A stretch of DNA of 64,000 nucleotides from Malania oleifera (lineage: Eukaryota > Streptophyta > Magnoliopsida > Santalales > Ximeniaceae), in contig NC_080421.1 of assembly GCF_029873635.1 (NCBI RefSeq), positions 40,653,120 through 40,717,119 on the forward strand. Reading direction: 5' to 3'. Positions within the stretch are counted from its first letter, which is position 1. Each line of letters opens with the position of its first letter. The position numbers were made by a program, and so were the translations under genes. Shown here piece after piece: positions 2,280-49,015 of the stretch. The notes under the pieces are model-generated. The model did not search any database. It saw nothing but the letters and a program-made list of their open reading frames with translations, and was not told the DNA's origin.

Positions 2280-3084
2280 CAAAACTGACTATCCACCACC
2301 AACACTTCCATAATAGTATGGCTGCACTAATATTTCTCTGTATCTATGGTACCGAGCATCCACCATATCCGACCCATCAGGGTTCTTAAAACATATAATT
2401 GCAATTTATGCAATACAACAATATAATAATCTTTTCATTTTCACAACTTATAATCTGTAATAAACTCTCATCATTATTCCCAATAAAACACGTAATAAAT
2501 ATAATACCGTAAAATTCACAATAAAACACTTAATAAATATAACTTCGTAAAAATCTCAACATGCTTAATTATGAGATAAAATAAATTAAATTCATGCCAC
2601 ACGATTAGCGTGTTATTTATAATTCAACAAATTACCGAATAAAATATATAATAATATATTCGGGTATATTTTATTAAAAATGCGGGTATCACCTTCACAT
2701 ATTTAATCTAACTCAAACATATTTAAATAAAATACGACAGGATCAAATCTACGTACTTCAGTTTTACTCACATAAATATTTAAATAGAATCAGTATCACC
2801 AAATTCATATACTCAAATTTAATCGGAATAATTAAAATAAAAATATGATCAAATTTCCGCAGTTTAATTTAATTTAGGCATATGGATGTAATTAAAATAA
2901 AAATAATCAATTTAAATTAGACATATTTTAAAATAAATTCTGACATAACCAATCCACTTATCTTAACTTTAGAGTGGTGCCTACGACGTGCGGATGATGA
3001 AATTTTTCCGATTAAATCATTGAAGAGTGGAGTTGGGACCCGAGAATGATGTCCATTCTTCAATTTGGCCAAGAAATAGCAGAG

Positions 3085-3127
<43 letters not shown>

Positions 3128-4980
3128 ATTGAGGAAGAGATCACATTATATATATAATTATATTATATCAATATATTATATTATATTATTAATAATTATT
3201 AATTAATTAAATAATTTAATTTTTTTTTAGAATTGTCCCACTAATATTGCATATATATTTTTGGGATCGTTATATTCTCCCCTCATAAAAATTTCGTACT
3301 CGAAATTTTGGTAAACATATCCCTATTTAACGTAACAATAGGTTTAAACCTATCCTAACCTACCTATTCCTACCCTTATCTTAATTCATACATATACTCT
3401 GGTAAAAATCATTCTTAGAGTCTACAAAATCTATACTCTATGCTCTAACACCAACTGTAGTGACGACCCGAAAATTTGCTCTGATACCAACTATTGTAAT
3501 CCGAAAAATTTGCTCTGATACCAACTATAACAATCCAAATTTTATACAACGGAATATCCCAAATTCATTGTACCAGTGTACTAAATAACCTTTTATTACA
3601 ACAATATCTCCAATATTATCATCCGTAAAATTCTAAAACATTAAAAAAAATACAACTATTCTAAAATTTATTCTAAATAACTCTTATTATCCTACCCATG
3701 CTTTCGCTCTGCTACTCTGGTTTTTGCTATGCTTCTCAAGATATCTGAAATGTATAATAAAAATTTGGGTGAAACACCTCTTAGTAAGTTAAGACTAGAT
3801 TATTATCAGTGTGTGGCTAAAATGAGCTTTAGTGTAGAAATAATTTAATAATAATTTTAAATAATTTTAGTATACTAGAAATTGCATTTATAAACTTTGA
3901 AACACATTTTTAAATAAATACACGTACTTTTCTCCAAAATTAAAAATATAGGCTTATTTAATGGCTAAAGTCACATAATACACAAATATGTGTAAAAGAA
4001 TAACTTTTGGCCGATGCATGTCATGTTTAACCCCCATGATGGTCTGTGCGGTCCGAAAACTAGACTTAGCATTTGTTGTCTGACCAAAGTTAAGTCAAAA
4101 GTTTATGTTTGTAAGATCAGTTTGCTTACCACATCTTGGTCCGGAAATAGGTGGGTACAACCCTACTCAGGCCAAACTAATTATCCACCATCAACACTTC
4201 CACAACAGTGTGGCAGCACTAATATTTCTCTATATCTACGGTACCGAGCATCTACCACATCCGGCTCATCAGGATTCTTAAAACATATAATTGCAATTTA
4301 TGCAATACAATAGTATAATAATCTCCTCATTTTCTCAACTTTTAATTTGTAATAAACTCTCATCATTATTCCAAATAAAACGCGTAATAAATATAACACC
4401 GTAAAATTCACAATAAAACACTTAATAAATATAACTTCGTAAAAATCCCAACAAGCTTAATTATGTAATAAAATAAATTAAACTCATGCCACATGATTTG
4501 TGTGTTATTTATAATTCAATAAATTACCGTATAAAATATATAATAATATATTCGGGTATACTTTATTAAAAATGTGGGTATGATCACCTTCACATATTTA
4601 ATCTAACTCAAACATATTTAAATAAAATATGACAGGATCAAATATACGTACTTTAGTTTTACTCACATAAATATTTAAATAGAAACAGTATCACCAAATT
4701 CATATACTCAAATTTAATCAGAATAATTAAAATAAAAATATGATTACATTTCCGCAATTTAATTTAATTTAGGCACGTGGATGTAATTAAAATAAAAATA
4801 ATCAATTTAAATGAGACATATTTTAAAATAAATTCTGACATAATCTAACCCGCTTACCCTAAGCTTGGAGTGGTGCCTACGACGTGCGAATGATGAAATT
4901 TCTCCGGTTAAATCATTGACGAGCAAAGTTGAGACCCGATAATGATGTTCGTTCTTCAATTTGACCAAGAAATAGCAGAG

Positions 4981-5036
<56 letters not shown>

Positions 5037-6269: not shown

Positions 6270-6560
6270 CGTTGTTATTTCAAATACCTTACTTTTTAGA
6301 TATACTTTTTTCTTAGTTGCCCAACATTATGTTCCACATAACATAATAGACTTAAGGTATTGAGATCTACTTGGCTTATTAATTTTTTGACCTCTTAATC
6401 TTCTCTCCAATATTACTTCTACTATGATTGAAATTTCATTTTGTATATTCTATTTTATTTATACTTATCCTAAAAATTATAGATTTTAAAGTTTTTCCCA
6501 TAATTCTAATTTATATTCTACTTCACCCATCATCTGCAAACAACATACAATGTGTGTTAT
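6270..6560 (-). mobile_element. RTE-type LINE reverse-transcriptase scrap
   Basis: Read on the minus strand, 6550 downward encodes a recognisable reverse-transcriptase core: M-L-F-A-D-D just after 6550, then a stretch resembling the RTE region following FADD (R-I-S-x-N-K-x-E-Y), broken by stops and frame changes. It is a strongly decayed, truncated LINE piece in the same orientation as the four other RTE pieces in the window. Confidence 0.5.
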
Positions 6561-6578
6561 TTGTGGCTCTTATACTTC

Positions 6579-9005
6579 TGTTTTGATAAGCAAAGAAGGA
6601 AGAAGGAAAAACATGAAGGGGGCAGCACAGCAGGTCTCGTCAACGAAGGCAATGTGTTCATCGACGAGGGGACAACAAAGGTTCATCGACAAAGGCTCTG
6701 AAGTTTGTTGACGAATAATTACTGAAAGCAGGAAATTTCATACTTTTGACATCGTCGACAAAAGCCTTGTGTTTGTCGATGAAGGTTCTCTTGGTCTTGT
6801 CGACGAAGCCCTGTGTTCGTTGACGAGAGGCACCTGGACTACAGCAGTTTCTTCAAAAATTTGAATTTTTAAACGTTTTGTGGTTGGGCAAACGGGGGAA
6901 AACCTCCGAGGAACCTCTATATATGTCATATGGGCATATTTTGAGAGAAAGAGGGATCATTTGAGAAGTGTATTGTGTACATTTTGATTTCCATAGTGAA
7001 ATTTGTGTGTCATTTCTTCCGTGGATGTAGGTTTTGCCGAACCACGTAAATCTTCATGTTGATTTTGTTCTGGTTGTGTGTTATTTATATTTACTTGTTG
7101 TTTATTCCGTTGTGCATCTTCATTATTCGATCCGTATTACAACAAATTAGTATCAAAGCGATTGTTGTTATGACATTTGGATCATCTTCTGCAAAATTTA
7201 ACGTAGTCAAATTCGATGGAACCGGAAACTTTGGTTTATGGTAGAGAAGAGTGAAGGACATTTTTGTGCAACAAGGAATGGCTAAGACTTTGCTTGATAC
7301 TCAGCCAGAAGGAATGGATGAGCCAACATGGGTAGATTTGAAAGCAAAGGCAGCGTCTACAATATGCTTGTGTTTGGCCAATGAAGTTCTCTATTGGGTG
7401 ATGGAGGAAGATTCTTCAGCGACTATCTGGCAAAAGTTAGAAAGTCGGTACATGTCTAAATCCCTTAATAACAAACTTTTTCTTAAGCAGCATTTATATT
7501 GGCTTAAGATGGTTGAAGGATCAAGTATGGATCAACACATTAATGCATTTAATCAAATTATAAGTGATTTGATAAGAGTTGATGTGAAGTTTGATGGGGA
7601 TGATAAGACTTTGACACTGTTAAATTATTTGCTCTCGACTTATACCTACAAAAATCTTGTGACCATTCTTACGTGAGGAAAAGAAACTCTTGATCTAGAA
7701 GAGGTAACAAGTGCCTTATTAAATTTTCATCAAAGGTAGAAGATATGTGATGAATGAGAAGAGCTTGTGGTAAAGGGTAGCAATGAGCAAGGCTAAGGAA
7801 AGTTTAAGAATGGGTCTAATCAAAAATCCCGAAATCAATATAAGAAGAATAAGGAAATCTGGTGTTATAAATGCAGTAAAAAAGGGCATGTGAAATCGAA
7901 GTGTTCGGATTGGAAGAAGAGAAATGCTGAAAAGCATGAGGGGTTTTCAAAATCTGTGAATATTGTTCAACAAGAAGATTCAGCGGATGGTGATATTCTA
8001 TCAATTTCAACGAAGTCAGATAATCTAACAAACTCTTGGATACTTGACTCGACATGCTCTTATCACATGACTCTGAACAAGGAGTGATTCAGCACTTACA
8101 AGTTAGTGAATTTTGGATTAGTTCTTATGGGTAATGATTATTCATGCAAGATCATTGACATAGAAAATGCAAAAATAAAAATGTTTGATGGTGCTATAAG
8201 AACATTGTGTAATGTAAGACATATATCTGAATTGATAAAGAGTTTGATATTTCTTGACACTTTGGATTGTAATGACTTCAATTACAAGTCCAAAGATGGA
8301 GTCTTGATCGTATGGAAAGATAATTTGGTTGCAATAAAAGGGTAGAAACTGAATGAGAATATTTACACGTTGTAGGGAATTACCATTGTAGGTGGAGTTG
8401 CAACTGTGGATGCTGAATTAGATGAGACCGTCTTGTGGCATATGCGTCTTGGGCATATGAGAGAACATGACATGAAAGAACTACACAAGAGGAAACTCTT
8501 AAAGGGCTTGAAATCATGTTAGTTGGAATTTTGTAGGATATGTGTTATTTGAAAACAAAACAGGGCAAAGTTCAGATCAGCTACTCATAAGACAAAAGGA
8601 ATTTTTGACTATGTGCATTCAAATGTTTGGGGCCCAGTAAGAGTTGCATCAAAGGGTGGACATGCGTATTATGTGAGTTTCATTGATAATTATTCACAGA
8701 AGGTATGAGTTTTCTTCATGCTTCACAAATCAAGTACGTTTGTCAAGTTTAAAATTTGGAAGACGGAAGTGGAGAACTAGACGGGGAGGAGAATCAAATG
8801 TTTAAGGTCGGATAATAGGACCGAGTACGCTGATTCTCAGTTTATGGAGTTTTGTGTAGAGCAGAGCATCAAGAGACATTTTACAGTTCACCGGACATCT
8901 CAACAAAATTGTGTGGTAGAATGGATGAATCGAACTCTTACTGATAGGGTTCGGTGTCTGAAATTGAATGCAAGGCTACCGAAATGATTTAAGGAGTGTT
9001 TTTAT
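6579..9005 (+). mobile_element. Ty1/copia retrotransposon, 5' part, broken
   Basis: A 5' LTR (about 6579-7144) is followed by a primer-binding-site-like stretch (TAGTATCAAAGC, near 7149), a UBN2-type gag (about 7170-7740), a CCHC zinc knuckle C-Y-K-C-x4-H-x4-C (about 7862-7903), a protease segment (W-I-L-D-S, about 8034), the pre-integrase region (about 8400-8560) and part of the integrase core (to about 8990). Reverse transcriptase, RNase H and 3' LTR are absent: the element stops about 300 bp before NOP10. The order gag-protease-integrase identifies Ty1/copia, TNT1-like. It carries many breaks and is an old fossil. Its LTR holds the TCGTCGACGA array. Confidence 0.88.
6637..6826. repeat. Phased TCGTCGACGA palindrome array, copy B (copia LTR)
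   Basis: Units start at 6637, 6658, 6683, 6705, then 6752, 6773, 6797 and 6817. Steps are 21, 25, 22, a 47-bp gap, then 21, 24, 20: two groups of four. The variants (TCATCGACGA, TTGTCGACGA, TCGTTGACGA, TCGTCAACGA) are CG-to-TG or CG-to-CA forms of the consensus. A TATATAT box follows at 6918. Same architecture as the gypsy-type LTR arrays. Confidence 0.85.
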
Positions 9006-16948: not shown

Positions 16949-17312
16949 TATATAAAATGAAAAGCCAAAAACCCTGGGGGTTGATGAGATGGGAAGGGAC
17001 CAATCATCAATTTAATACGACTCCGCTCCCGTTCTGATCATATCATCGTTCAATCTGCGTAATCCATTTCCATTTTCCAAATTCCATAACAGTTGACCTC
17101 TCACATACACTCTCCTTCCAACCCACGTCTCCCTCCTCTCCTCTCTCTCTGCAACTCTCTCATTGAGAATTTGGTCGATACCTTCCCCTACCCTCGTCCC
17201 AAACCTTCAACGTCCACCTGCCCCCAATCCGCCAGATTCCAAATTCTCCCCATTTTCAAGATTTACTGCTAGGAACAGCCCAGAAGAGCTTTGCACGATA
17301 CACTGAATAATC
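16949..17312 (+). promoter_or_regulatory. Probable promoter and 5' leader of the NECAP gene
   Basis: TATATAAAA at 16949-16957 is a plausible TATA box. A CT-rich leader (17128-17162) follows before the ATG at 17313, as in many plant housekeeping promoters. Inferred from position and composition. Confidence 0.4.
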
Positions 17313-20300
17313 ATGTCGTTTGAGGAGGGAGAGGAGCATTTCGAGCACACCCTTTTGGTTGTGCGCGAAGTTTCCGTCTACAAGATCCCGCCGCGCACCA
17401 CCAGCGGCGGCTACAAGTGCGGCGAGTGGCTGCAGTCCGACAAGATCTGGACCGGCCGCCTCCGGGTGGTCTCGTGCAGGGACCGTTGCGAGATCCGCCT
17501 GGAGGATCCCAACACCGGCGAGCTCTTTGCCGCGTGTTTCGTCCACCCCGGCCAGCGCGACAGCTCCGTCGAGACTGTCCTCGATTCTTCACGATACTTT
17601 GTCTTGAAGATCGAGGACGGCTGCGGCAAGCACGCCTTCATCGGTCTGGGCTTCGCCGAGCGCAACGAGGCCTTCGATTTCAACGTCGCATTGTCCGATC
17701 ACGAGAAGTACGTCAGGAGAGAGCACGAGAAGGAGGCCGGCGAGCCCAGCGATGATAATCACATTGATATTCATCCCGCTGTGAATCACAGATTGAAGGT
17801 ATTGTAATTCAACAACCGGCCTTCAACTTAAATCGGTGTATTTCTTTCTGTAGAAAATTGATCAGTATTTTGGTAGCACTTTTCATACTTTAGAAAGTGA
17901 TAATTGAATTACTTTTAGCTGTTAGAAGCTGGAAAAATACTTTGACAATGCTAACCAAATGCGTTCTTTGGTATTTTTGTGAAAAATTATTTTGCTTCAG
18001 CATCATTCTTAACAATGTTATCTCTTCAGCTTATTGTTGTTGCTGTATGTGGAGTCAGGAGTATAAATATTGTGAAAGTTAAGGGCAGGTTTAATTTCAA
18101 GTATAATATAGTGTAATACAGTTGAGCACTCATGTCTATTCATGTGTGTGTCATATGCTGCTTTGCTCTTGTTCTTGGTTTGACATTTTATTCGGGGTCT
18201 TTGCTGGAGGAATTTTGTCCGATGAGTTATTTGAAATGGTTTAATGTCTATGTTGTTCCCTGCCGAAACTTAAATTCTAGATTAGGTTCCCATGTTTTGA
18301 CTAATTAATGTATCTCTACTTTAGACCAAATAATAGTTTCAGCATGCTGAGGGCAAAAACAGCTTTCTTCTTCTACGTGCTCTTGGTTTCTCAAATGTCT
18401 AGTTTAGCTGAATTACAAGATTTGGGAGTATAGCTAAAGCCTCACACTTGAGAACAAGGTTTTCCATCTGACGTGCTTGAATGGATCCAATATGAGGCTG
18501 AATTAGTGATATAGTGCACACATCTCTGGTAACACCTTATGATTCTCTATTATATATTTGGGAAAACTTCAAATTTCAAATGCAATTCCCAATTTACAAG
18601 GCTTTTTTGCTATATTGCTGATTTGGGGAGGGCATTATGCATCTGAAAAGACTGTTTTTTGTGACTTGAAATTCTGAGTTTCAGGTTTGGGCATAGCACT
18701 TTTCCCATTGGATACAATTAGCCCTAATTAGAGAAAACTTTAAATCAAATATAAAATTTAGGTGATTTTCAGTTGTATATTTTGTATCGGTGTCCAAGTG
18801 GGGTAACCCTAATGATGATAAGCAAGTACAAAAGAATTTAAACTATGAAGAAAGTTTCTTAAGAAAAAAATTAAATGGATTCAGTAGACTGAGAGCAAGA
18901 CATGCTAGACATGCTATTACACATTATCATTTGGTCAAATCAGACTTATTTAATTATCCATGTGTTTCTTGGAGTTTGTTGGCCACAAAGGATTTATGAC
19001 CTAGTCATATGAAGTTTGTCAATGACCTATTATTTTCTGTTCTGCAGGGGCTAATAACAGCTGACTATTACTAAGACCAATAGTGATATAGAACTGTGAA
19101 TGGAAGATGTTTTAGAAATCTATTAACAAGTTCTATTATTGTTTATATTTTTGAAAATTTTCAAATAAGTCTACCTTGTGAGTCATCCATTTAGCGCACT
19201 GCATTAGTTGTTTGCAAAAGAGAAGTTTCAATCTTGTGGATGTTGTCATCCTCATCATTCTTCTTGATACCAAATATTATTCTTGAATTATTATTATAAA
19301 AATGGTTCACTAGATGCCCAAAATGTTAACAGTTCCATGTGCAAGAAAGGCTGGGATAAAACCATTGTAAAGGTACAATTAGTTTAGGGTCGTATATAAC
19401 ATTCCAAGTCAGGTGTGAATGTCTGACCATGAAATATAGGACTTGGCGCAAGCTATCCCTGCAGAGAAAGCAGCCACTTCATAATCATTTGGGTGCTGGA
19501 GAAAACATAAAATCTAAAAGTTCCATTGATCTGGTCCTCATCTGTTTTAAAGGCTTAGCTCCCTTGCAGAAACCCACCGGTGGTGAATTATTTATGTGAA
19601 GTTGTTGGTAACAATGCTATTATTCTTAAGCGAAATGGTTTTTCATTGTTTTTCTCATTCTTCTGGTTATTGTTACTGTTGATGATTTCTCCACCCTATT
19701 AATGCTCATGTAATATTAGTTTAATTGTGAATTAAGTTTTTAATTTGCCCTTCTGCATTGTTTTTGAATCAATCTTCTATTCAAGTGTAAGATGATGTTC
19801 TCTGGTGTATATTTGAGGTTGTCTTTGCTGATGATTTCTAGATATTCGAATTGGCACCTTGCCTTAAACTCAAGTTTGTAGGGTCATTTATCTCTCACAT
19901 ATTGATTGATTAGTCATTTCTCTCTTTCTGCCAGTAGTTTCTTGTTCAGTCTCTGTCTTTGTTATACCATACAAGTTTAGATTGCTTTGTTCCCGTCTGG
20001 ATCGAACTGACTTTTGATGGCTATAGGAAGGCGAAACTATCCGGATAAACGTAAAGAACAAATCATCTAGTGGTACCGGCATGCTTTCATCTGCTGGTTT
20101 GTCAGGAGGGCTTTCTGTTGCTGGAAAGCCAAAAGCACTGGGGCTTGCCCCACCACCTACTGGGCTAGGGAAGATTAGGTCTCCTCTCCCACCACCACCT
20201 AATGATCCTGCTGCTTCTCGGATGACTTCTGCTGGTCATATTCTCAAGGGGTCTAAGGAAAATGTGAAGCGTGCTAATGATCCTCTCTCAGATCTTTCCC

Positions 20301-35015: not shown

Positions 35016-35096
35016 TGTAATGACCCGAAGAATAATGGTATTTAAATAATAAAAGAAAGGGAAATGGAAACTAGAAACAGAAGGAGGCAGTCGACT

Positions 35097-35384
35097 TCGT
35101 CGACGACATTGCATTTTGGAAAGGATAAATCTTAAGGAATTTTTGAGTTCCTCGTCGACGAACACAGGGGACTCGTCGACAAGGGTATAACAGGAGCTCG
35201 TTGACGAGGGTTGGAGTTCGTCGATGAACTTTCTACAGGACTCATCAATGAGGTGACGTGGCTCGTCGACAAGGAAATACCGAGGGGATGACTTTGGGGT
35301 TTCTGAATTTCGTTGACGAAGGGGAGAGTTCGTCGACGAATTTTCTATTGACCTCGTTGACGAGGTGACGTGGCTCGTCGACAA
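35097..35384. repeat. Phased TCGTCGACGA palindrome array, copy C (gypsy 5' LTR)
   Basis: Units start at 35097, then 35152, 35173, 35198, 35218, 35242, 35263, then 35310, 35330, 35354 and 35375. Steps are 21, 25, 20, 24, 21, a 47-bp gap, then 20, 24, 21. A TTAAATAG box follows at 35395, 10 bp beyond the array. This is the longest copy. Confidence 0.88.
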
Positions 35385-35999
35385 AGGCCACAATTTAAAT
35401 AGGCCTAAAGTTCATTTTTGGACGAAATTTTCCGTGTAGAGCTACTCTCTCTCCTACCCTTCAGTTTCTCCACCTTCTCTCTTCAATTTCGGGCCGAATT
35501 TTCGCCGATTCGAGGATTGGAAGCCACCACGACGCTCTTGAGAAAGTTCTCTGCAAGTCTGCCTGAGCGGATCGTCGGTGGGATTAAGTTGGAAACCATC
35601 CCAAATCCAGGGTAAGGGTTTCTACTCAATATTTGAATTTTTGACAGTTGTAGAAAGTGTTATACGCGTATAAATACTGAACTTTAGTTTTGGAGAATGT
35701 TGTTTCCAGGGTGTTGAGTAGGGAACCTTGTGGGTGCGGGACATATTTTCTTATGAACTTTTCAGGAATCAGGGAAGGGGATAAACTAAGCTAGTATTTT
35801 ATGAAAAATATGTATATTGTTATAGCATTTGATTTTAGGAAAATAAATATATTTATATATGATTTATATTTGGGAAAATACTGTTGAAAGTGATGATAAG
35901 TTAAATATACGAAAAAACCTATTTAGTGTGGCATGAGTAGAAATTAATATGAAATACTATTTCTGGGAATGTGTTAATGATACAGATTTTTATAATGGA

Positions 36000-36250
36000 A
36001 AACCGGTGTACGAGCCGAGATTTTTATATGATTTGCCGGCGTACGGGCCGTGCTATGTGTATGATTTGCTAGCGTACGGGCTGAGCTATGGATATATTTT
36101 GCTGGTGTACGGGTCGTGCTATGGATGTGATTTGCCAGCATACAGGCTGAGTTATGTATATGATTTTTTGGCGTACAGGCTGAGCTATAGATGTGATTTG
36201 CTAGAGTGCGGGCTGTGCTATGATATGATTTTTCGGCGTACGGGCTGATG
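36000..36250. repeat. 36-bp minisatellite in gypsy 5' LTR
   Basis: About seven units of a 36-bp repeat with the core GCGTACGGGCTGAGCTATG and ATGATTTGCC. The unit length is a multiple of three, so a periodic 12-residue frame (Y-D-L-P-A-Y-G-x-x-Y) stays open, but it is not a known protein. Confidence 0.85.
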
Positions 36251-39200
36251 ATATTCATGATACACATATATATGCAAAATGATATGATTGATTTGATAAT
36301 TAATGATATGAAATATCCATGTATCACAGTTTTGGTATATGTTATATGATATCAGAACCTAATTGGCTTGGTCTAGGCTAACACTTGCACGGTACCGTTA
36401 CTATGTGTCCATGGTCTTCGTAATCATGATATTTGTGTTAACGCCGCTGTACAAAGTAGTGTGAGATTGGATGGTCGATATGATTTTTAAGAAGTGTGTG
36501 AGCGCCTCTGGTGTATGGGCCAGGTCTGGCAAACTCATCAAACTTACAGACTATACCTTTGACTTGGTAGTGGTCGGCCAACCATTGTCAGGTCCCGCCT
36601 TCGGGCCACACAACCCTGTCATGTGGGGGTAATACATGACAACAACCAGCTAACTTACTAGGAATGTTTTTGTATTATTATTATATGAGATAAAATATGT
36701 TTATGAAAATGCAGTATGTTCTACCATGTTTTGATGATATATATGTTTTCCCAGATTTGACATAACAATTACTGCATATATTCTGTATGGTATATGTATA
36801 ACATGAAATACTCATGTTGACACACACTGGTATTAGTTTATTTCCCTTACTGAGAGGTGTCTCACCCCGAATTTCATAAATATTTCAGGAGCCCCTGATA
36901 GGAGAATGGGTAAAGCCCCGCTAATCTAGTACGGTAAATCTGCCCTTCTAGAAGGGTAGGTATTTTGATAGGGTCGGATGTATTTTTTGGAAATGACCTT
37001 AAGACTTCTTTTTGGGTTGAGTGTTGTGTATAAATGTGTACAGTGATTGTAGTTACTCTGGTATTATGATGTAGGGTATAATGAGATGTATATGATTGTA
37101 TGTTTCCTGCTATTTAGATTTCTGTTATGTGTTCTGATGTATCCCTGGTACCCACGGGTCTAGGTGGATTATGATCTGCGGAGCTAGGATTTGTGATATT
37201 GTATTTATTGTACTATGAAAAAAAAAAAATGAAAATGTGGAAATTAAGCAAGTCGTGACAGGTTGGTATGAGAGCCTAGGTTGCTAGGTTCTGTAGACTT
37301 TAGAATGCAGCGGAAACAATACCAGACTTTAGGAAATGATTTAAGGTTGTTCTACATTCTAGAGGCAGGATTTCCATGGTAGTTTCTGTATTTTTCCTAG
37401 ATTGACGATTTCAGGAAAACCACAGTAAGCTATTGTCGGGTTGTATTCCTAGAATGTAGGATTGGGAATTAGAAATGTGTTAGAAATGTTGAGATAAGTG
37501 GTGAGGATAGGTGGGTAAATTATGAGGATAGGATTATTGAGTTGCGACTGCTGGATGGATCCAAGAGGAAATAGTGCCCATGCGAGTGGCAGTGATGGAG
37601 CAAGGCCATCAGGTGCAGCTGGGACAGACTCTAACGTGGTATTACGTAGTGTGGCTCAGTAGGTTATGGCTGAGATCGCTAGGAGCTCGAGGGAGCAGAG
37701 TGGTCCATCTGTAAGCCATGGGTGCATTATAGAAAAGTTTATCAAGATGAATCCTTCGACATTCTCAGGTGTAGTTGATTCTGTAGCCGCTGAGAACTGG
37801 ATGCAGGAGACCGAGAAGGTCTTGGCCATGTTATAGTGTACTAAGGAGGTCTTGGCCGAGAGGTGGTGGACCGCAGTGAGACTATTGGAGCAGCAGAGGG
37901 TGACTCCGATAACTATGACATGGACCGGTTTAAAGAATTATTCTTTGATAGGTATTTTCCAACTACTGTCAGGGAGGCTAAGGTAGATGAGTTCTTGAGT
38001 CTGAAGCAGGAATAGCTATCAGTCCAGTAGTATGCGGCGCATTTCATCGAGCTCTCTCGTTTTGCCCCATATATTGTTCCAGATGAAGTGAAGAAGGCGA
38101 GGCAGTTTGAGAGAGGTTTGAGGCGGAGTATATTCAAGTAGGTGGTGATGCTGCGGATCCTGGACTTTGTTGAGTTAGTAGACAGGGTAGCCTTGGCAGA
38201 GATTGGTGAGCGTCTTGATGCAGAGGAGTAGGGATAGAGGAAGAGATCTGTATCTACTGACTACCAGCAGGGTCATAGACTGGGTCAGTGGAGGAGAGGA
38301 AACCATGGCAGAGGGTGGAGGCAGGAGACGGGAGGATGCGAGGTGCAGACAGGGTAGGGTCCTCTAGTTTGTAAGACTTGTGGTAGGAGGCACTGGGGAG
38401 AGTGTCGAGCCAGTAGTGTGATGTGCTATCGCTGTGGTAGATTGGGGCATATGGTGCGAGACTGCCTTACCCTACCATATGCAGTTCCAGCTCCTAAACC
38501 ATACCGGGGAGGTTATCAGGCGCCACGTGGGGGCTAGCAGAGGAATGCGGCTCCAGCTAGGGTGTTTACACTGACGCCAGGTGAGGCTAAGACGGCAGGT
38601 GACGTGGTGACAGGTATGCTTACTATGCTTTCTTTTAAAGTTATTGTATTATTTGACTCAAGAGTTACACACTCGTTCGTGTCTTCGGGGTGTGTTAAAT
38701 TATGTGGGGTTGAAACAAAATCATTAGATGTTGAATTGTTGGTATCTACATCGACTGGGTTATCAGTGAGGTGTAGTATGGTGCTCCGAGGTTGTCCAGT
38801 CGATATTCAGGGAAAGAATTTGTCTACTAATCTGATAGTGCTTGACATGCACGGGTTTGATGTTATTTTTGGCATGGATTGGCTCGCAGCTAATTTTGCC
38901 AGCATAGATTGCCGAGCACGAGAAGTGATATTTAGATCTCCGGAGGAAGTAGAATTCAAGTTTGTAGGGTCGCAAGTGCAATCCCCGCCTCAGCTAGTTT
39001 CAGCTATTCAAGCCAGAAGACTACTGCTGAGTGGTTGTCAAGGGTTTGTGGCTATTGTGAAGGAGATTTCAGAGAATGAATTGAAACTTGCTAGCACGCC
39101 TGTAGTAAAGGAGTTTACAGATGTTTTCCCAGACGAGTTACCAGGCTTGCCACCCGATCGTGAGGTAGATTTCCCTATTGATCTACCTTCCGGTACAACA

Positions 39201-42200
39201 CCAATTTCTAAAGTACCGTACCGGATGACGCCAGCAAAATTGACAGAATTGAAGAATCAGTTGCAAGATCTACTTGATAAGGGCTTCATATGACCCAGTG
39301 TATCTCCGTGGGGAGCTCCAGCTTTATTTGTGAAGAATAAAGATGGGACTATGAGGATGTGTATAGAGTATAGGGAGATTAATAAAGTGACAATCAAGAA
39401 CAAGTATCCTCTACCTTGTATCGACGATTTGTTTGACCAGCTCCAGGGTACACAAGTGTCTTCGAAGATTAACCTCAGATCTGGTTATCATCAAGTGAAA
39501 GTGAAAGTAGAAGACGTCTCGAAAACGGCCTTCAGGACCAGGTACGGGCATTACGAGTTTCTTGTTATGCCGTTTGGTTTGACGAATGCTCCTGCGGTAT
39601 TTATGGACTTGATGAGTAGAGTCTTCCACCAATACTTAGACCAGTTTGTTGTTGTGTTTATTAATGATGTACTGGTCTATTCGAGGAGCTACGAGGAGCA
39701 TGAGACACACTTGAGGCAGGTTTTTCAGACACTTCGGGAAAAGAAGTCGTACACCAAGTTCAGTAAATGTGAATTCTGGCTTGAGAAGGTCGTGTTTTTG
39801 GGGCATGTTGTATCTGAAGACGGTATTTCTGTGGATCCTAGCAAGATTGAGGCAGTAGTAAATTGGGCTAGACCGAGAAATGTCTAGGAGATCAAAAGTT
39901 TCTTGGGGCTAGCTGGCTATTATCACCGTTTCGTTAAGGGATTCTCAGCTTTGTTAGGACCTGTGATACGACTAACGAAGAAGAATGTCAGATTTGAGTG
40001 GGACGACAACTGTGAGCAGAGTTTTCAAGAACTGAAGCAAGGATTAGTCACAGCACCAGTATTGGTTATCCCATCAGGGGGTGAGGGTTATGTCATTTAT
40101 AGTAATGCGTCCTTGAAGAGACTTGGCTATGTATTGATGCAGCATGGCAGGGTAGTGGCGTATGCGTTCAGGCAGTGAAAGAATATGAAAAGAGCTACCC
40201 TACACATGATCTTGAATTGGTTACAGTGGTACACGCATTGAAAATTTGGAGGCATTACCTGTACAGCGAGCAGTGTGAGATTTTCTCCGACCACAAGAGT
40301 TTAAAGTATTTTTTCACGCAAAAGGAATTGAATATGAGACATAGAAGGTGGTTAGAGTTAATTAAAGAATTTGATTGTACCATCAGTTATCACCAGGGGA
40401 AAACAAACGTGATAGCTGATTCAGGGAACCAGTGTTGGCGGCTATGGAGATCCAGTATCCGATCATGATGGATCTGGAGAGACTCGGCATAGAGTTGATA
40501 GAGAGTGATCCTCCAATGTGTATTTTCAGCCTAGTAGTATAGCCTACTCTGCAAGAAAGAATTAAAGCCACTCAAAAGGAACACCTAGAATTAGCAGAGG
40601 TGATGGATTGAGTACAGAATGGTCAGGGGGAGGAATTCAATATTGTAGATGACGGAACTTTGCGGTTCTGTTCCATATTATGCGTTCCTGCAGATACTGA
40701 GATCAGGAAGACTATTTTAGAGGAGGCTCACAAATTTTGGTATACAGTTCATCCCGGTAGTACAAAGATGTACAGAGATCTGCGAGAGTCATACTTGTGG
40801 AGTGCTATGAAGAGAGAGATAACAGAGTATGTAGCCCAGTGTTTGATGTGTCAGCAGGTAAAGGTTGAGCACCAGAGGCCAGCAAGGGTGTTGCAGCCAT
40901 TATTTATCCCAAAGTGGAAGTGGGATCATATATCTATGGACTTCGTGTCAGGACTGCCGATGGCATTACATGGCCAGAATGTCATCTGGGTGGTTGTTGA
41001 CCTTTTGACTAAGACTGCCCACTTTATACCTATCAAGATCAGCTACTCCCTCAACTATTTAGCGGAGATATACATTCAGGAGATAGTTCGTTCTCATGGG
41101 TGCTAGTATCGATTGTGTCAAATAATGACCCGCGTTTTACGTCCGTTTTTGGAAGAGTCTGTAAGAAGCACTAGGGTCTCAGTTGTCATTTAGTACGACA
41201 TTCCATCCTCAGTCAGATGGGCAAACTAAGAGGACGATACAAACATTAGAGGATATGCTCCGTGCGTGCGTATTGGATTTTGGAGGTAGTTGGACCTAGT
41301 TCATGCCACTAGTAGAATTTGCATATATTAATAGTTATCAGACCAGCATTGACATGACACCGTTTGAGGCTTTATATAGTAGGAGATGTCGTTCTCCTTT
41401 GTTTTGGGATGAAGTGGGTGAGCGGCGAGTAGTGGGGGCGGAGCTTGTGCAGCAAGCGTGTGATAAGGTTCGGCTTATCAGGGACAGGATTAGTGCAGCT
41501 CAGAGCTGACAGAAAAGTTATGCTGATAATCGCCGCAGGAATCTAGAATTTGATGTGGGTAATCATGTGTTTTTGAAGATAGCTCTAATGAAAGGGGTTA
41601 TGCGATTTGGGAAGAAGGGTAAACTTAGTCTTAGGTTTATCGGTCCATTTGAGATTCTAGATAAAGTGGGGTCGGTAGCCTATAGGCTAGCTTTACCACC
41701 TGTGTTGTCCAGGATCCACGACGTATTCCATGTTGCTATGTTGAGGAAATACATCCCAGATCCTTCTCATATTATTAGTTATGATGAATTTGAGCTTAGT
41801 GATTCACTGGTGTATGAGGAGGTACTAGTACAGATTCTGGATAGGAAAGTACAGGAGCTACGTAACAAGAAGATTCCTTAGGTAAAAGTTTTATGGAGGA
41901 ATCATGCAATTGAAGAGGCTTCTTGGGAATCCAAGGAGCAAATGAGGTAGAGGTATCCGCATTTATTCCAAGAAGTTTGATTGGGTAAAATGTAAGTAGT
42001 TAGGTAGTATTTCTTTTGCAGATACATGTAATGGTTTAATTAGTGTAGCATTTTAGTTCTGGGAGAATTTTATTTTGTGTATGTAATCTCCCAAGACTCT
42101 GGAATGTAACCGCGATATTCCTCCGCCATAAGTGAGGGTAAGTAATACAATAAGTAGACCCTTTTCTTGTTAAGGGACGACGAGTTATGTGAATAGTAAA

Positions 42201-42313
42201 TTTAGAGGATGAAATTTATAAGGAGGGGAGAATGTAACGATTCGAAGAATAATAGTATTTAAATAATAAAAGAAAGGGAAATGGAAATCGGAAATAGAAG
42301 GAGGCAGTCGACT

Positions 42314-42535
42314 TCGTCGACGACATTGCATTTTGGAAAGGATAAATTCCGAGAAATTTTTCAGTTCCTCGTCGATGAACACAGGGGACTCGTTGACGAG
42401 GGTATAACGGGAGCTCGTCGACGAGGGTTGGAGTTCGTTGGCGAACTTTCTACAGGACTCGTCGACGAGGAAATACCGAGGGGATGACTTTGGGGTTTCT
42501 GAATTTAATCGACGAAGGGGAGAGTTCGTCGACGA
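42314..42535. repeat. Phased TCGTCGACGA palindrome array, copy D (gypsy 3' LTR)
   Basis: Units start at 42314, then 42369, 42390, 42415, 42435, 42459, then 42506 and 42526. Steps are 21, 25, 20, 24, a 47-bp gap, then 20. It has fewer units than the 5' LTR, but the remaining steps are identical. A TTTAAATAG box follows at 42545. Confidence 0.87.
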
Positions 42536-43149
42536 AGGCCACAATTTAAATAGGCCTAAAGTTCATTTTTGGACGAAATTTTTCGGGTAGAGCTACTCTC
42601 TCTCCTACCCTTCGGTTTCTCCACCTTCTCTCTTCGATTTCGGGCCGAATTTTTGCCGATTCGAGGATCTGAAGCCACCACGACGCTCCTGGGAAAGTTC
42701 TCTGCAAGTCTGCCTGAGTGGATCATCGGTGGGGCTAAGTTGGAAACCATCCCATATCCAAGGTAAGGGTTTCTACTCAATATTTGGATTTTTGAAAGTT
42801 GTAGAAAGTGTTATACGCGTAGAAATACTGAACTTTAGTTCTGGGGAATGTTATTTCTAGGGTGTTGAGTAGGGAACCCTGCAGGTGTGAGACATATTTT
42901 CTTATGAGCTTTTCAGGAATCAGGTAAGGGGATAAACTAAGCTAGTATTTTATGGAAAAATATGTATATTGTTATAGCATTTGATTTCAGGAAAATAAAT
43001 ATATTTATATATGATTTATATTTAGGAAAATACTGTTGAAAGTGATAATAAGTTAAATATATGAAAAAACCTGTTTAGTGTGGCATGAATAGAAATTAAT
43101 ATGAAATACTGTTTCTGGGAATGTGTTAATGATACGGATTTTTATAATG

Positions 43150-43440
43150 GAAAACCGGCATACGAGCCGAGATTTTTATATGATTTGTCAGCGTATGGGC
43201 CGTGCTATGTGTATGATTTGCTAGCGTATGGGCTGAGTTATGGATATATTTTATCGACATACGGGTCGTGCTATGGATGTGATTTGCCAGCGTACGGGCT
43301 GAGCTATGTATATGATTTGCCGGCGTACGGGCCGAACTATGGATGTGATTTGCCAGCGTACGGGCTGTGCTATGATATGATTTGCCGGCGTACGGGCCGA
43401 GCTATGGTAAAATGTGAAATACTGGAGTACGGGCCGATGA
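43150..43440. repeat. 36-bp minisatellite in gypsy 3' LTR
   Basis: Same 36-bp repeat as in the 5' LTR, with about one more unit and some rearrangement of unit order. The GTACGGGC core is conserved through the array. Confidence 0.85.
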
Positions 43441-44437
43441 TTTTCATGATATACATATATATGTAAAATGATATGATTGATTTGTTTATTAACGATATGA
43501 GATATCCATGTATCACACTTTCAATATATGTTATATGATATCAGAACTTGGTTGGCTTGGTCTAGGCTAGCACTTGCACGGTATCGTTGTTATGTGTCCA
43601 TGGTCTTCGTGATCATGATATTTGTGTTAATGCCGTTGTACGGGGTGGTGTGAGATTGGATGGTCGATGTGGTTTTTAAGAAGTGTGTGAGCGCCCCTGG
43701 TGTACGGACCAGGTTTGGCAGACCCATCAAACTTGCAGACTATACTTTTGACTTGGCAGTGGTCGGCCAAACATTGTCAGGTCCCGCCTTCGGGCTACAC
43801 AACCCAATCATGTGGGGGTAATACATGACAACAGCTAGCTAACCTACCAGGAATGTTTTTGTATTATTATTATATGAGATGAAATATGTTTATGAAAATG
43901 CAGTATGTTCTGCCATGTTTTGATGGTATATATGTTTTCCCAGATTTGACATAACAGTTACTGCATATGTTCTGTATGGTATATGTATAACATGAAATAC
44001 TCATGTTGACACTCACTGGTATTAGTTTATTTCCCTTAATGAGAAATGTCTCACCCTGAATTTCATAAATATTTCAGGAGCCTCTGATAGGAGAGCGGGT
44101 AAAGCCCCGCTGATCTAATACGGTAGATCTGCCCTTCCAGAAGGGTAAGTATTTTGATAGGGTCGGATGTATTTTGTGGAAATGACCCTAAGACTTCTTT
44201 TTGGGTTGAGTGTTGTGTATAAATGTGTACAGTGATTGTAGTTACTCTGGTATTGTGACGTAGGGTATAATGAGATGTATATGATCGTATGTTTCCTGCT
44301 GTTTAGACTTCCGTTATGTGTTCCAATGTATCCCTGGTACCCACGGGTCCAGGTGGATTATGGTCTGCGGAGCTGGGATTTGTGATATTGTATTTATTGT
44401 AATATGAAAAAAAAAATGAAAATGTGGAAATTAAGCA

Positions 44438-45146
44438 TGGTCACCCACTTCAAATCTCAATTCCTGGCGGCAAGTATCTGCATAACTTTTCTACCGATTA
44501 TGTGTTGCACTTATTCTATCTTGAATAAGTCGGACCTTATCATATGCCCGCTGCACTATATCTGGCCCCAAAACTCGCCTCTCACCTAACTCACTCTAGT
44601 ATAAAGGAGAACGACACCTCCTACCATAAAGCACTTCATAAGGTGTCATGTCTATGCTAGCCTGATAGCTGTTGTTGTAGGCAAACTCCACCAGTGGAAA
44701 ATACTAGGTCTAGCTACCCCAAAAATCTAATACACCCGCTCGCAGCATATCCTTAAGTACCTTAATCATTCTCTCTGTCTGACCATCTGTCTGAGGATGG
44801 AAAGTGGTGCTGAATGCTAACTGAGACCTCAAAGCCTCCTGCAAGCTTTTCCAGAACCATGATGTAAAGTGTGGATCATAGTCTGAGACTATAGATACCG
44901 GTGTTCCATGGGGTCGAACAATCTCCTAAATGTAAATCTTTGCCAATTAGTTCATAGGGTAGCTAACTTTGATAGGTAGAAAATGAGTTGTTTTCGTTAG
45001 CCGATTAACAACTACCCAGATGACATTTTGACCATGCAGTGCCGGTGGTAGCCTAGTAACAAAATCCATGGATATGTGATCCCACTTCCACTCAGGGATG
45101 TAAAGTGGCCGCAACTGTCCTGTCGGCCTCTGGTGCTTAGCCTTAA
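44438..45146 (-). mobile_element. Ty3/gypsy integrase fragment, minus strand
   Basis: On the minus strand the conceptual protein reads [11 protein letters not shown] (near 45090), the integrase core, then [15 protein letters not shown] and G-R-R-C-R-S-P-L. It is related to, but distinct from, the integrase at 40670-41510 and lies in opposite orientation. It abuts the truncated gypsy 3' LTR on one side and a plus-strand LTR head on the other. No LTRs of its own were identified. Broken fossil. Confidence 0.85.
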
Positions 45147-45259
45147 TGTAATGACCCAAAAATTAAAAAACTATAAAATAATTATGAAGTATAATAAATA
45201 AAATGGATTAATGGATAATAAGGGAAAAGGAAAGAAATTAGAGGGAGGAATAGCAGGCC

Positions 45260-45447
45260 TCGTCGACGAATGCTCTGTCTTTGTCGACGAGTGTCCTTTT
45301 GGAGATCGTCGACGAATTTCATTTCTCGTTGATGAAGGAATTCCGAGAGAGTAAATTTGAAACTCTGAATTTCATTGACGAATGTATCTTCTCGTCGACG
45401 AAGTCTCTTCAGTGGTTCGTCGACAAACCCACGTGTCTCATCGACGA
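45260..45447. repeat. Phased TCGTCGACGA palindrome array, copy E
   Basis: Units start at 45260, 45281, 45306, 45326, then 45372, 45392, 45417 and 45438. Steps are 21, 25, 20, a 46-bp gap, then 20, 25, 21: a mirror-symmetric double tetrad. Four units are exact TCGTCGACGA; the others deviate only at CG positions. It is the cleanest example. Confidence 0.9.
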
Positions 45448-45456
45448 AGCCCTGCC

Positions 45457-45464
45457 TATAAATA
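45457..45464 (+). promoter_or_regulatory. TATA box of plus-strand LTR
   Basis: TATAAATA, ten bases beyond the last palindrome unit. Good plant TATA consensus within an LTR. Confidence 0.55.
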
Positions 45465-46326
45465 GAGTTTTCCTTCATTTTCAGTGAGAAACTCGGGGAT
45501 TCACTCTTTCTCTTTTTAAAAAATGGTTTTCCCAACCTTCTTTCTTCGATTCTGGGCGGATTTGATCTAGTTTGATGATCCGGAACCACCATGAGGTTCG
45601 TAAGATCGTTCTTTACAAGGCTGTAGGATCTTATCATTGATTTGTATAAAGAGGACAAGAGTATCGATAATGTCTAATTACCATTACTATCTCGACATAT
45701 AGCCGTTACATTTCAGTATTTCACAAAACCTACTCATTTAATGCCAATTAAAAACTATACTCATTCCACACAATTTTCATTAGTTAATTCATGAATAAAA
45801 CATCTGCTTGATAAAGTAATTTCTGCTGCTAAAACTAGGGTATGAATATCTCCAAGTTGCTATTTTATTAAATATAGATATATAGATAAATGTGGGGAAA
45901 ATGGAGAAAATCAACCCTACCGCTTTAGTTAATTTTAAAATAAGCTTATGGTTCAAAATAACGATTTTCCAACCAGCAAAAATGTTTATAAAGACCTACA
46001 CTATACTTTAAAAATATCATACTTAAATTTAAATGGTTGATTTTAAAAATAAAGTCAGTTAACTGAACCCTAAGCCCGGAAACCCTCGAAAAGCCATAAC
46101 TAAATATATAAAAATCATTTTAACATTCCATTCGGGTAAAACTCTTAAACATAACTGACATAGTATAATCCCCTTACCTGATTCCTAGAAACGACCCAAG
46201 ACACTCGAAAATCGAAACCAAACATTTACCTGAGTTCTAGAATCTACTCCTCTAGACTAGTAAAGATTTGTCCCTTGATCCTTTTGGTACCTTTCGATCA
46301 TCGAAACGGGCAACGAACAGCGAACG

Positions 46327-46331
<5 letters not shown>

Positions 46332-46375
<44 letters not shown>
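46332..46375. repeat. (GA)n microsatellite
   Basis: About 44 bp of GA inside the minus-strand LTR, matching the GA run at 1853-1888 of the related LTR. Confidence 0.9.
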
Positions 46376-46379
<4 letters not shown>

Positions 46380-46465
46380 CATGGGTTTTAGAGAGAGAGA
46401 TTTTTAGATTTCTTAATGAAGAAGCAAACAAAAATCCTATTTGTAGCCCCTTGACCCAGTCAAAT

Positions 46466-46655
46466 TCGTCGACGAAATGACGCTTTTATCGACGAGCCAC
46501 ACAAGGTCATTCGTCGATGGAGGAAGGACCTCATCGACGAACCTTAAGCCTGATATTTTCTGGGCATTCTGGATCTCTTCGTCGATGAGGCTCTGAATTT
46601 CAGTGATGAAGCATAGAAGGGCCTTCGTCGATGAGAACATTGGCTTTGTTGACGA
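46466..46655. repeat. Phased TCGTCGACGA palindrome array, copy F
   Basis: Units start at 46466, 46486, 46511, 46531, then 46579, 46600, 46625 and 46646. Steps are 20, 25, 20, a 48-bp gap, then 21, 25, 21. The array lies beside the TATA-like box of the minus-strand LTR. Confidence 0.87.
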
Positions 46656-46725
46656 AGCCTGCTGTTCCATGTTTAAATTTTCCTTTCTTTCTTTCTTATT
46701 TAATTCTCGAGTTTGGGTCTCTACA

Positions 46726-47720: not shown

Positions 47721-48097
47721 AATATTTTTTTTTTAAAAAAAAAAGCTAAAAGCAAGAAAATAAGGCAAAAAGCCAAAATTCTCAATGTCCCATAGGAGCT
47801 ATAAATTAATGATCATGTCATTTAAGGCACCGAGACTAATATACAAACCCTAAAAGGTTTAAAATACATTGAAAAGCCCTAGAATGCACTAATGACTCGA
47901 AAAGGCCTGAGAGGTTTTGAAATGCAATTAAAGTTGTAACTCCCCAACCTGAGTCTGTCAGAGAGCACTGCATCTCTCCTCCTCCATCTAGACCAGACAA
48001 TAGGGGGCGGGCCTTATCGGACTAATGACTGACCCCACATACCAACACGTGTCTTTTTTAGTGTGTTTTGTCCTCACTCACACACTTCCTGAGAAAA

Positions 48098-48161
48098 CTT
48101 CTCAAAAGGTCACCCATCCCAAGATTACTCCAAGCCAAGCACGCTTAATAGTGAAGTTCTT
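48098..48161 (-). other. 5S-rRNA-like segment in TRIM 3' LTR
   Basis: On the minus strand, AGAACTTCAC, then TTAAGCGTGCTTGG (48148-48135) and GGGATGGGTGACC (48120-48108) match the middle and 3' part of plant 5S rRNA, including the internal Pol III box A and box C regions. The 5' third of 5S is not recognisable. It is not a functional ribosomal 5S gene. Confidence 0.8.
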
Positions 48162-48519
48162 ATAGGAAGGCTCTCGAAAAGAAAGGTGCACCTTATTGAT
48201 ATGGGGCAGTAACATCTAATCCTTTTAAGTCTTTCTTCCACGGCGTATCACATTCTCCCCCACTTACAGAACACAACGTCTTCATTGCAAACCCACATTT
48301 CTAAACCTAGGCGATGTGAATCTCATCACACTTCCAGTTGGGTAATTTGCTTTGATACCATTTTGTAACGCCCCAACCTGGGTTTGTTAGAGAGCACTGC
48401 GTCTCTCCTCCTCCTAGACCAGACAATAGGGGGCAGACCTTATCGGACTAATGATTGGCCCCATAGACCAATACATGTCCTTTTCAGTGTGTTTTGTCCC
48501 CACTCACACACTTCCTGAG

Positions 48520-48578
48520 AAAACTTCTACCCATCCCAAGATTACTCCAAGCCAAGCACGTTTAACAATGGAGTTCTT
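48520..48578 (-). other. 5S-rRNA-like segment in TRIM 5' LTR
   Basis: Corresponding segment of the second LTR copy, with a GTGCTTGGCTTGGAG core and a GGATGGG word. Somewhat more diverged from 5S than its partner. Confidence 0.7.
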
Positions 48579-48668
48579 ATGGGAATGCTCCAAAAGAGAA
48601 AGGTGTATCTTATTAATATGGGTAGTAACATCTTATCTTTTTAAGTCTTTCTTTCACAGGGTATCACA

Positions 48669-49015
48669 TTAGCCCACTAAAGACAGTAAATAATCTCGAG
48701 GTTAAAAATGGGCATCAAGTAATAGGTTTAGTGGAACCTCTAGGCGGTTAGCTATGAGAGAGTAGACGTAGTTTGGGATAGCTGAATTAGTTTAAAAAGA
48801 GTTTGCATCTCTCTTCCCAACTCTTTGTGTTTTAATTACTTTAATATTTATGTATTTTCATGGCTTGATTAATTTGTTTTAAATTTGACATCAAGCACTT
48901 AAATTTTATTAAAACGAATTCATCTCCACTCTTGGGTTGCCATTTGGGTCAACAACATAATCGTAAGGTAAAAGAAAATAAGGTATAAGATTACAGTGGA
49001 AGACAATGATGTTCA

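Follow-up and report, generated by a model that had tools for sequence, protein, structure and literature searches.

Among the closest described systems, the long terminal repeats (LTRs) of Sireviruses carry many palindromic, CpG-rich repeated motif (RM) boxes that make up a CpG island shortly upstream of a conserved TATA box, and a cis-regulatory role has been proposed for them (PMC2829016). These boxes are reported to share a CGG-CCG core and to be a feature of a single copia lineage. In plant Del gypsy LTRs, the 5' part includes a CpG-rich region; eudicot Del elements are reported to have no CpG island (PMC4029996). For crapaud of Podospora, a U3 is described that varies upstream of the TATA box while the remainder of the LTR is kept, with co-packaging as a proposed route, and hybrid Ty1/Ty2 LTRs of yeast are mentioned in the same paper (PMC10787394). 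VANDAL elements, as presented in a further paper, contain short repeat motifs in their noncoding DNA that are bound by VANC anti-silencing proteins (PMC12844716).

Here, we describe a 64,000-nucleotide stretch of the Malania oleifera genome (contig NC_080421.1, positions 40,653,120 to 40,717,119; hereafter the window), in which the LTR of a Ty1/copia element carries an array of palindromic units that is also present in Ty3/gypsy LTRs. Like the Sirevirus RM boxes, the array is palindromic, CpG-rich and located upstream of a TATA-like box in an LTR; unlike them, it does not have the CGG-CCG core, its unit being TCGTCGACGA at nearly fixed spacing, and it occurs in gypsy LTRs as well, whose carriers cannot be Sireviruses. 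Del LTRs share with it a CpG-rich 5' part of a gypsy LTR, but the main text of the Del paper contains neither the word tandem nor the string palindrom. As in crapaud and Ty1/Ty2, the difference lies in the U3 upstream of the TATA box and the remaining LTR is conserved, although the partners in those cases come from one family or from sister families, whereas here they come from different superfamilies. The likeness to VANDAL lies in short repeated motifs in noncoding transposon DNA as candidate cis targets; VANDAL elements are DNA transposons with a trans factor of their own. In the literature accessible to us, Sireviruses are known to have CpG-rich palindromic boxes located upstream of TATA, and no report of sharing across superfamilies was found: none of the matches listed described an array common to copia and gypsy elements, most subscription papers and all preprints lying outside the scope of the search, and for TCGTCGACGA in the printed literature no LTR paper appeared by title among the matches listed.

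The copia LTR occupies positions 6555 to 7144 on the plus strand (590 bp, TGTT...AACA) and is the 5' LTR of its element. The preliminary description had placed its start at 6579; the flanks of 20 other copies set the boundaries instead at TGTT (6555), where the sequence reads TGTTATTTGTGG, and AACA (7144). The LTR is followed by a primer binding site (PBS) at 7147-7159, TTAGTATCAAAGC (many other copies read TTGGTATCAGAGC), which we take to be of the tRNA-Met type. Next comes a broken gag with the start of pol (7245-8519, plus strand), in which Pfam searches of the stop-free pieces recovered Retrotran_gag_2 (1.7e-24), Pol_BBD and gag_pre-integrs; the element ends before the reverse transcriptase (RT). 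A genome search gave 3118 first-look candidates, of which 40 were scored; each of these spanned 553 or more of the 566 bases of 6579-7144 at 87-100% identity, so that at least 40 near-full-length copies exist. Five LTR pairs have 5-bp target duplications, four of them exact (AAGTA, CGCCT, ATCAT, GGGTT) and one with a single mismatch (GCTAA/GCTAG). The internal piece of one of these pairs, on C2, was scanned and contains RVT_2 at 3.3e-66, and both a PBS and a polypurine tract (PPT) are seen in the family. Segment 6555-7144 is therefore a genuine copia LTR, its family having paired LTRs with target duplications, PBS and PPT as well as copia gag and RVT_2. The K2P distance is 0.081-0.139 within the LTR pairs and averages 0.132 over all copy pairs, which fits one old copia expansion. 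The preliminary description had also raised the alternative of a gypsy solo LTR or fragment that happened to come to rest beside a copia gag; this has next to no probability, as the whole segment recurs in pairs with target duplications, the copia PBS and a PPT, one pair enclosing RVT_2.

Within this LTR, eight TTCGTCGACGAA-like palindromic units extend over 6636-6827, starting at 6636, 6657, 6682, 6704, 6751, 6772, 6796 and 6816; the previously reported steps of 21, 25, 22, 47, 21, 24 and 20 were recovered exactly. The unit is strongly enriched in the window, with 63 matches to TTCGTCGACGAA at up to three mismatches against 12.7 expected (maximum of 20 in 100 shuffles) and 37 matches to YGTCGACRAR against 0.16 expected. 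All 21 copia copies compared have eight units with steps no more than 1 bp off those of the window, except for one 33-bp step in L065. These copies were the best matches to an array-containing query and include the five LTR pairs, so that they demonstrate constancy rather than frequency and are not 21 independent insertions. The array is preceded by a purine-rich lead-in (6590-6635) ending in CAGCAGGT, which local alignment to gypsy lead-ins identifies as the left part of the shared module. Its halves are separated by a central spacer (6716-6750) containing ATTACTGAAAG, or ATTACCGAGAG in some other copies, which is common to gypsy arrays; ATTACCGAGAG aligns in both copia L066 and gypsy L074_6699, and a TTCTTCTTGG phrase in the second half of the array is likewise common to some copia copies and L074_6699. 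The lead-in word CAGCAGG, said to be shared at three places, stands at 6628-6634 and has two minus-strand instances, one at 46658-46664 and one, absent from the earlier account, in the gypsy D lead-in at 2204-2210; 45251-45257 reads TAGCAGG. The word is weak evidence by itself because it occurs eight times in the window.

Several gypsy LTRs in the window carry the array. The element starting at 35016 is a Ty3/gypsy element, with an LTR pair around RVT_1 followed by integrase. Its 5' LTR (gypsy A; 35016-37260, plus strand) has an array at 35151-35385, a separate unit at 35096 and a PBS at 37263; a broken pol follows at 38538-41878 (plus), with RVP_2, RVT_1, Integrase_H2C2 and SH3_Tf2-1 in gypsy order (Pfam, stop-free pieces). 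The 3' LTR (42233-44437, plus), cut off at its 3' end, has an array at 42368-42536 and a separate unit at 42313. Tandem repeats with GGCGTACGGGC-like cores lie inside the gypsy A LTRs at 36005-36248 and 43155-43437, and the lengths of these stretches differ between the two LTRs. A type B LTR part (45147-45680, plus; array 45259-45448) supplies the best-scoring partner of the copia array; with no linked pol in the window, it is assigned to the gypsy type because it starts with TGTAATGACCC and, past the array, resembles the gypsy A LTR (z 14.0). For a type C fragment (46248-46725, minus; array 46465-46656), the best match in a random sample of the genome is L074_4674, a gypsy 5' LTR. The RT that follows this array LTR (start 4934, PBS at 3077, minus strand) is of gypsy type and shares 73% identity with that of the window. 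A type D fragment (1771-2290, minus; array 1988-2202) is gypsy-type by LTR similarity alone. The preliminary description had equated the copia steps with those of the LTRs at 35016, 42233, 45147, 46725 and 2276. This holds for types B and C (21, 25, 20-21, 46-48, 20, 25, 20-21) and, with extra or missing units, for the two gypsy A arrays (21, 25, 20, 24, 21, 47, 20, 24, 21 and 21, 25, 20, 24, 47, 20), while type D (21, 46, 71, 25, 20, 20) agrees in part only.

Other features lie around these LTRs. A minus-strand gypsy integrase fragment (44436-45144), whose DNA is 72% identical to 40861-41567, sits exactly between the cut gypsy 3' LTR and the type B LTR. Copies of the gypsy B array (query 45247-45460) form same-strand pairs only about 4.0 kb apart (for example C3:36948022/36952021 and C4:101785931/101789900), a spacing that would suit a short and perhaps non-autonomous element, and one further pair is 6.2 kb apart. 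Beside the type D LTR, 2282-3126 and 4174-5023 form an 850-bp direct repeat (91.5% identical, starts about 1.9 kb apart), possibly a small LTR element. Two direct copies at 47934-48254 and 48363-48670, 85% identical and each starting TGTAAC(T/G)CCCCAACC, are perhaps another LTR type. Pieces of host genes are also present, namely a DUF1681 protein (17307-17807) and an SNF2-type helicase (52649-55021, minus).

In the 1.49-Gb genome, TCGTCGACGA-N(8-14)-TCGTCGACGA has 17,686 exact occurrences, compared with 0 for the reversed control pattern; the pair pattern is palindromic, so that both strands give the same count. The 76 plus-strand places listed all lie close to where C1 begins; among them, the unit steps were 20 (30 places), 21 (20), 24 (18) and 19 (8), and none was 18, 22 or 23, though the pattern permitted 18-24. 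In a random sample of twenty 10-kb stretches, with an array defined as a cluster of at least three units, there were 12 arrays in 200 kb, 12/12 in gypsy-type LTRs. Array LTRs adjoin gypsy pol in the right order in three sample regions (L074, L078, L089), the other sample arrays being gypsy-type by LTR similarity alone. The copia fragments in the sample (L077, L080, L081, L086, L092), only some of whose LTRs were delimited, yielded no array assignable to a copia LTR. The bare pattern was also met in viral contigs (40 stretches) and was judged to be coding chance, because the steps listed were all multiples of 3.

Since the units are palindromic and their spacing is nearly symmetric, a gypsy array in reverse complement provides a natural control for similarity between superfamilies. 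Against the U3 of the copia copies, the sense orientation scored above the reverse complement in 21/21 copies for gypsy B (means 140 vs 67) and for gypsy C (means 107 vs 49). Over 17 gypsy arrays, nine gave this preference in 21/21 copies and five in 17 to 20; three were unseparated, namely L074_4674 (13/21), L076_3771 (11/21) and L076_7456 (6/21, the reverse complement ahead). In a second control, the units were kept and everything else in the first 300 nt was scrambled in place. All 21 copia copies beat all 20 such shuffles for six of the 17 gypsy arrays (B, C, D, L074_6699, L074_7131 and L087), and 19/21 did so for L088; the counts for the other ten were lower, down to 1/21 for L074_4674, and in seven of the 17 fewer than half of the copies beat every shuffle. 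In local alignment, the copia lead-in gave z 3.4 against gypsy B (reached by 0/200 shuffles) and z 2.8 against gypsy C (3/200), a modest similarity in a purine-rich sequence.

Outside this region the resemblance stops. Neither gypsy A nor gypsy B resembles the copia LTR over its first 36 nt (z 0.1 and -0.6). Downstream of the array, similarity does not exceed chance against gypsy A (z 1.6, reached by 17/200 shuffles) or B (-0.5), while gypsy A and B are alike there (z 14.0). Because the similarity covers the lead-in and the array and ends at the module edges, the copia LTR reads as a mosaic in which the shared module takes up about 240 bp. A foreign module between an LTR's own ends and its own downstream part is what characterizes a recombinant U3, and this is the arrangement found. 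The preliminary description had left the choice between module exchange and convergent capture of a host-responsive array. The alternative of convergence, that copia and gypsy elements each built the array for the same host factor, whose geometry set the spacing, appears unlikely. It is true that GTCGAC-centred palindromes are also arrayed, with different spacing, in a further LTR of this genome, L108 (G000:C1:69501231-69502831), presumably a Sirevirus-like copia LTR by its ends, so that such arrays can arise separately; the restriction of steps to 19, 20, 21 and 24 among the 76 places also hints at a geometric rule, though shared descent would give the same. However, spacers, lead-in and the central ACCGAGAG motif are common in order and orientation, and a factor recognizing the unit alone needs none of these. 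The orientation-dependent similarity of spacers and lead-in, stopping at the module edges, favours exchange. We therefore consider it probable that the copia LTR is a mosaic, in which a U3 module (about 6590-6828) of common origin with that of several gypsy families lies upstream of the element's own TATA box, R and U5, having moved from gypsy into a copia ancestor as an activating cassette.

The array is not confined to one copia family. A second family, that of L080, has a gag 70% identical to that of the first and a divergent array of ACTCGTCGACGAGT-like units, with two to six units above threshold per copy, a step of 20 or 21 in 8/10 copies and a doubled GATACCGAGAG-like motif in most of them. 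Its sense preference holds for gypsy B in 10/10 copies (means 71 vs 37) and in only 5/10 for L076_7456 and 6/10 for gyA5. Between the two copia families (one copy each, window and L095), the LTR is similar both at its start (z 6.9) and downstream (z 15.8). L080 had been considered as an array-free copia relative and was rejected as such, since it is cut off at 3555 and its family carries the divergent array. Eight other copia 3' ends, five of them supplemented by 600-base pieces, were hand-picked, not drawn at random, among the top 150 RVT_2 matches in a set of 57,104 candidates. Grouped by eye, they include three LTR groups with no array from the LTR start through U3 (L110/L112 with L109/L113; L104-L106 with L114-L116; and L107); L105 and L116 have single unit-like matches, which are not arrays, and L111, where no LTR start could be named, was left out. 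L108, introduced above, contains a second, different GTCGAC-centred array of the genome, with 13 GGTCGACC palindromic boxes upstream of a TATA-like box at steps of 19-43 after a first gap of 149. That the array was inherited from the common ancestor of copia and gypsy is highly improbable, given the three copia LTR groups that do not have it and a module that can be aligned while its flanks cannot.

The position of the array suggests a role in transcription. The copia TATA-like box (6917-6926, plus strand) lies 90 bp past the last unit, within the alignment to the relative L080, and in the second family the distance is 86 bp (L094, L095). In seven gypsy LTRs (gyA5, gyA3, gyB, L076, L078, L084, L088) it is 8-9 bp; TATA words sought in the gyC and L097 LTRs were not found. 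The difference between 86-90 bp and 8-9 bp is expected if the module was set before an existing copia core promoter. The CpG observed/expected ratio is 1.38 in the copia array against 0.68 in the remainder of its LTR; with two further arrays (1.57 and 2.00) and the remainder of a second LTR (0.76), these values compare with 0.54 for the window. Placement upstream of TATA, multiplicity, near-fixed spacing and CpG enrichment together suggest that the array is a promoter or enhancer element. We know of no convincing match between the unit and sites of known plant factors (W-box, as-1, DRE).

Alternatively, the array could act as RNA, as a hairpin that triggers small RNAs or aids packaging, and not as promoter DNA. 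U3 is indeed contained in the 3' end of the transcript, and each of the ten arrays folded exceeded full shuffles in stability (z -2.25 to -6.23). In the same ten arrays, however, the spacers had no pairing advantage over controls with shuffled spacers (z -1.15 to +1.88), so that the stability comes from the palindromic units, and the place upstream of TATA fits a role as DNA. We regard an RNA role as improbable; the related idea that the mirror-symmetric steps are a design for fold-back RNA was rejected on the same spacer result.

The direction of transfer was approached through trees of the arrays; both trees are unrooted, with unsettled bootstraps. With copia family 1, 21 copia and 12 gypsy arrays separated from five type C/D gypsy arrays with support of 99/99. 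When family 2 was added, this deep split fell to 59/73 and the two copia families lay apart in the best tree, yet a single copia array clade was not rejected (p-AU 0.371). These properties of the trees do not fix the direction and number of transfers, and a single transfer, two transfers or later exchange would each be compatible with them. Transfer from copia to gypsy, with later spread by gypsy families, is accommodated by unrooted trees, but it seems rather unlikely in view of gypsy arrays that are more diverse and more abundant (12/12 in the random sample), copia arrays that are found in two related families beside three copia LTR groups without them, and an array that abuts the TATA-like box in the seven gypsy LTRs and is 86-90 bp away from it in copia. 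As the gypsy arrays are broader and more abundant, the U3 module most likely crossed the superfamilies from gypsy to copia.

Such a transfer from gypsy probably ran through U3. The genomic RNA contains U3 a single time, at the 3' end, and from there it is copied into both LTRs during reverse transcription. A single template switch or conversion would thus put the module into both LTRs in the next round. The module may have entered a copia ancestor in one or a few such events, either by a template switch between co-packaged RNAs or by one conversion of a chromosomal 3' LTR, and the purine-rich lead-in would be a plausible crossover site. The array might then be an upstream activating cassette to which a host factor recognizing TCGTCGACGA binds in multiples, and the copia family would have carried this cassette through its expansion. 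It is conceivable, and we put it forward tentatively, that the array, with its eight palindromes, is a portable U3 cassette moving between superfamilies and read by one dominant host factor, the copia lineage thereby using the transcriptional gate of the gypsy elements that crowd this genome.

LTR evolution is usually told lineage by lineage, with copia and gypsy LTRs treated as unrelated. If the reading given here is true, a long control module with near-fixed spacing in both would mean that regulatory DNA can move between superfamilies within one genome. Copia LTRs free of the array are available for comparison, the palindromic core is short and exact unit pairs number 17,686, so that this genome would offer a tractable case for studying the binding factor, the route of exchange and the success of the elements.
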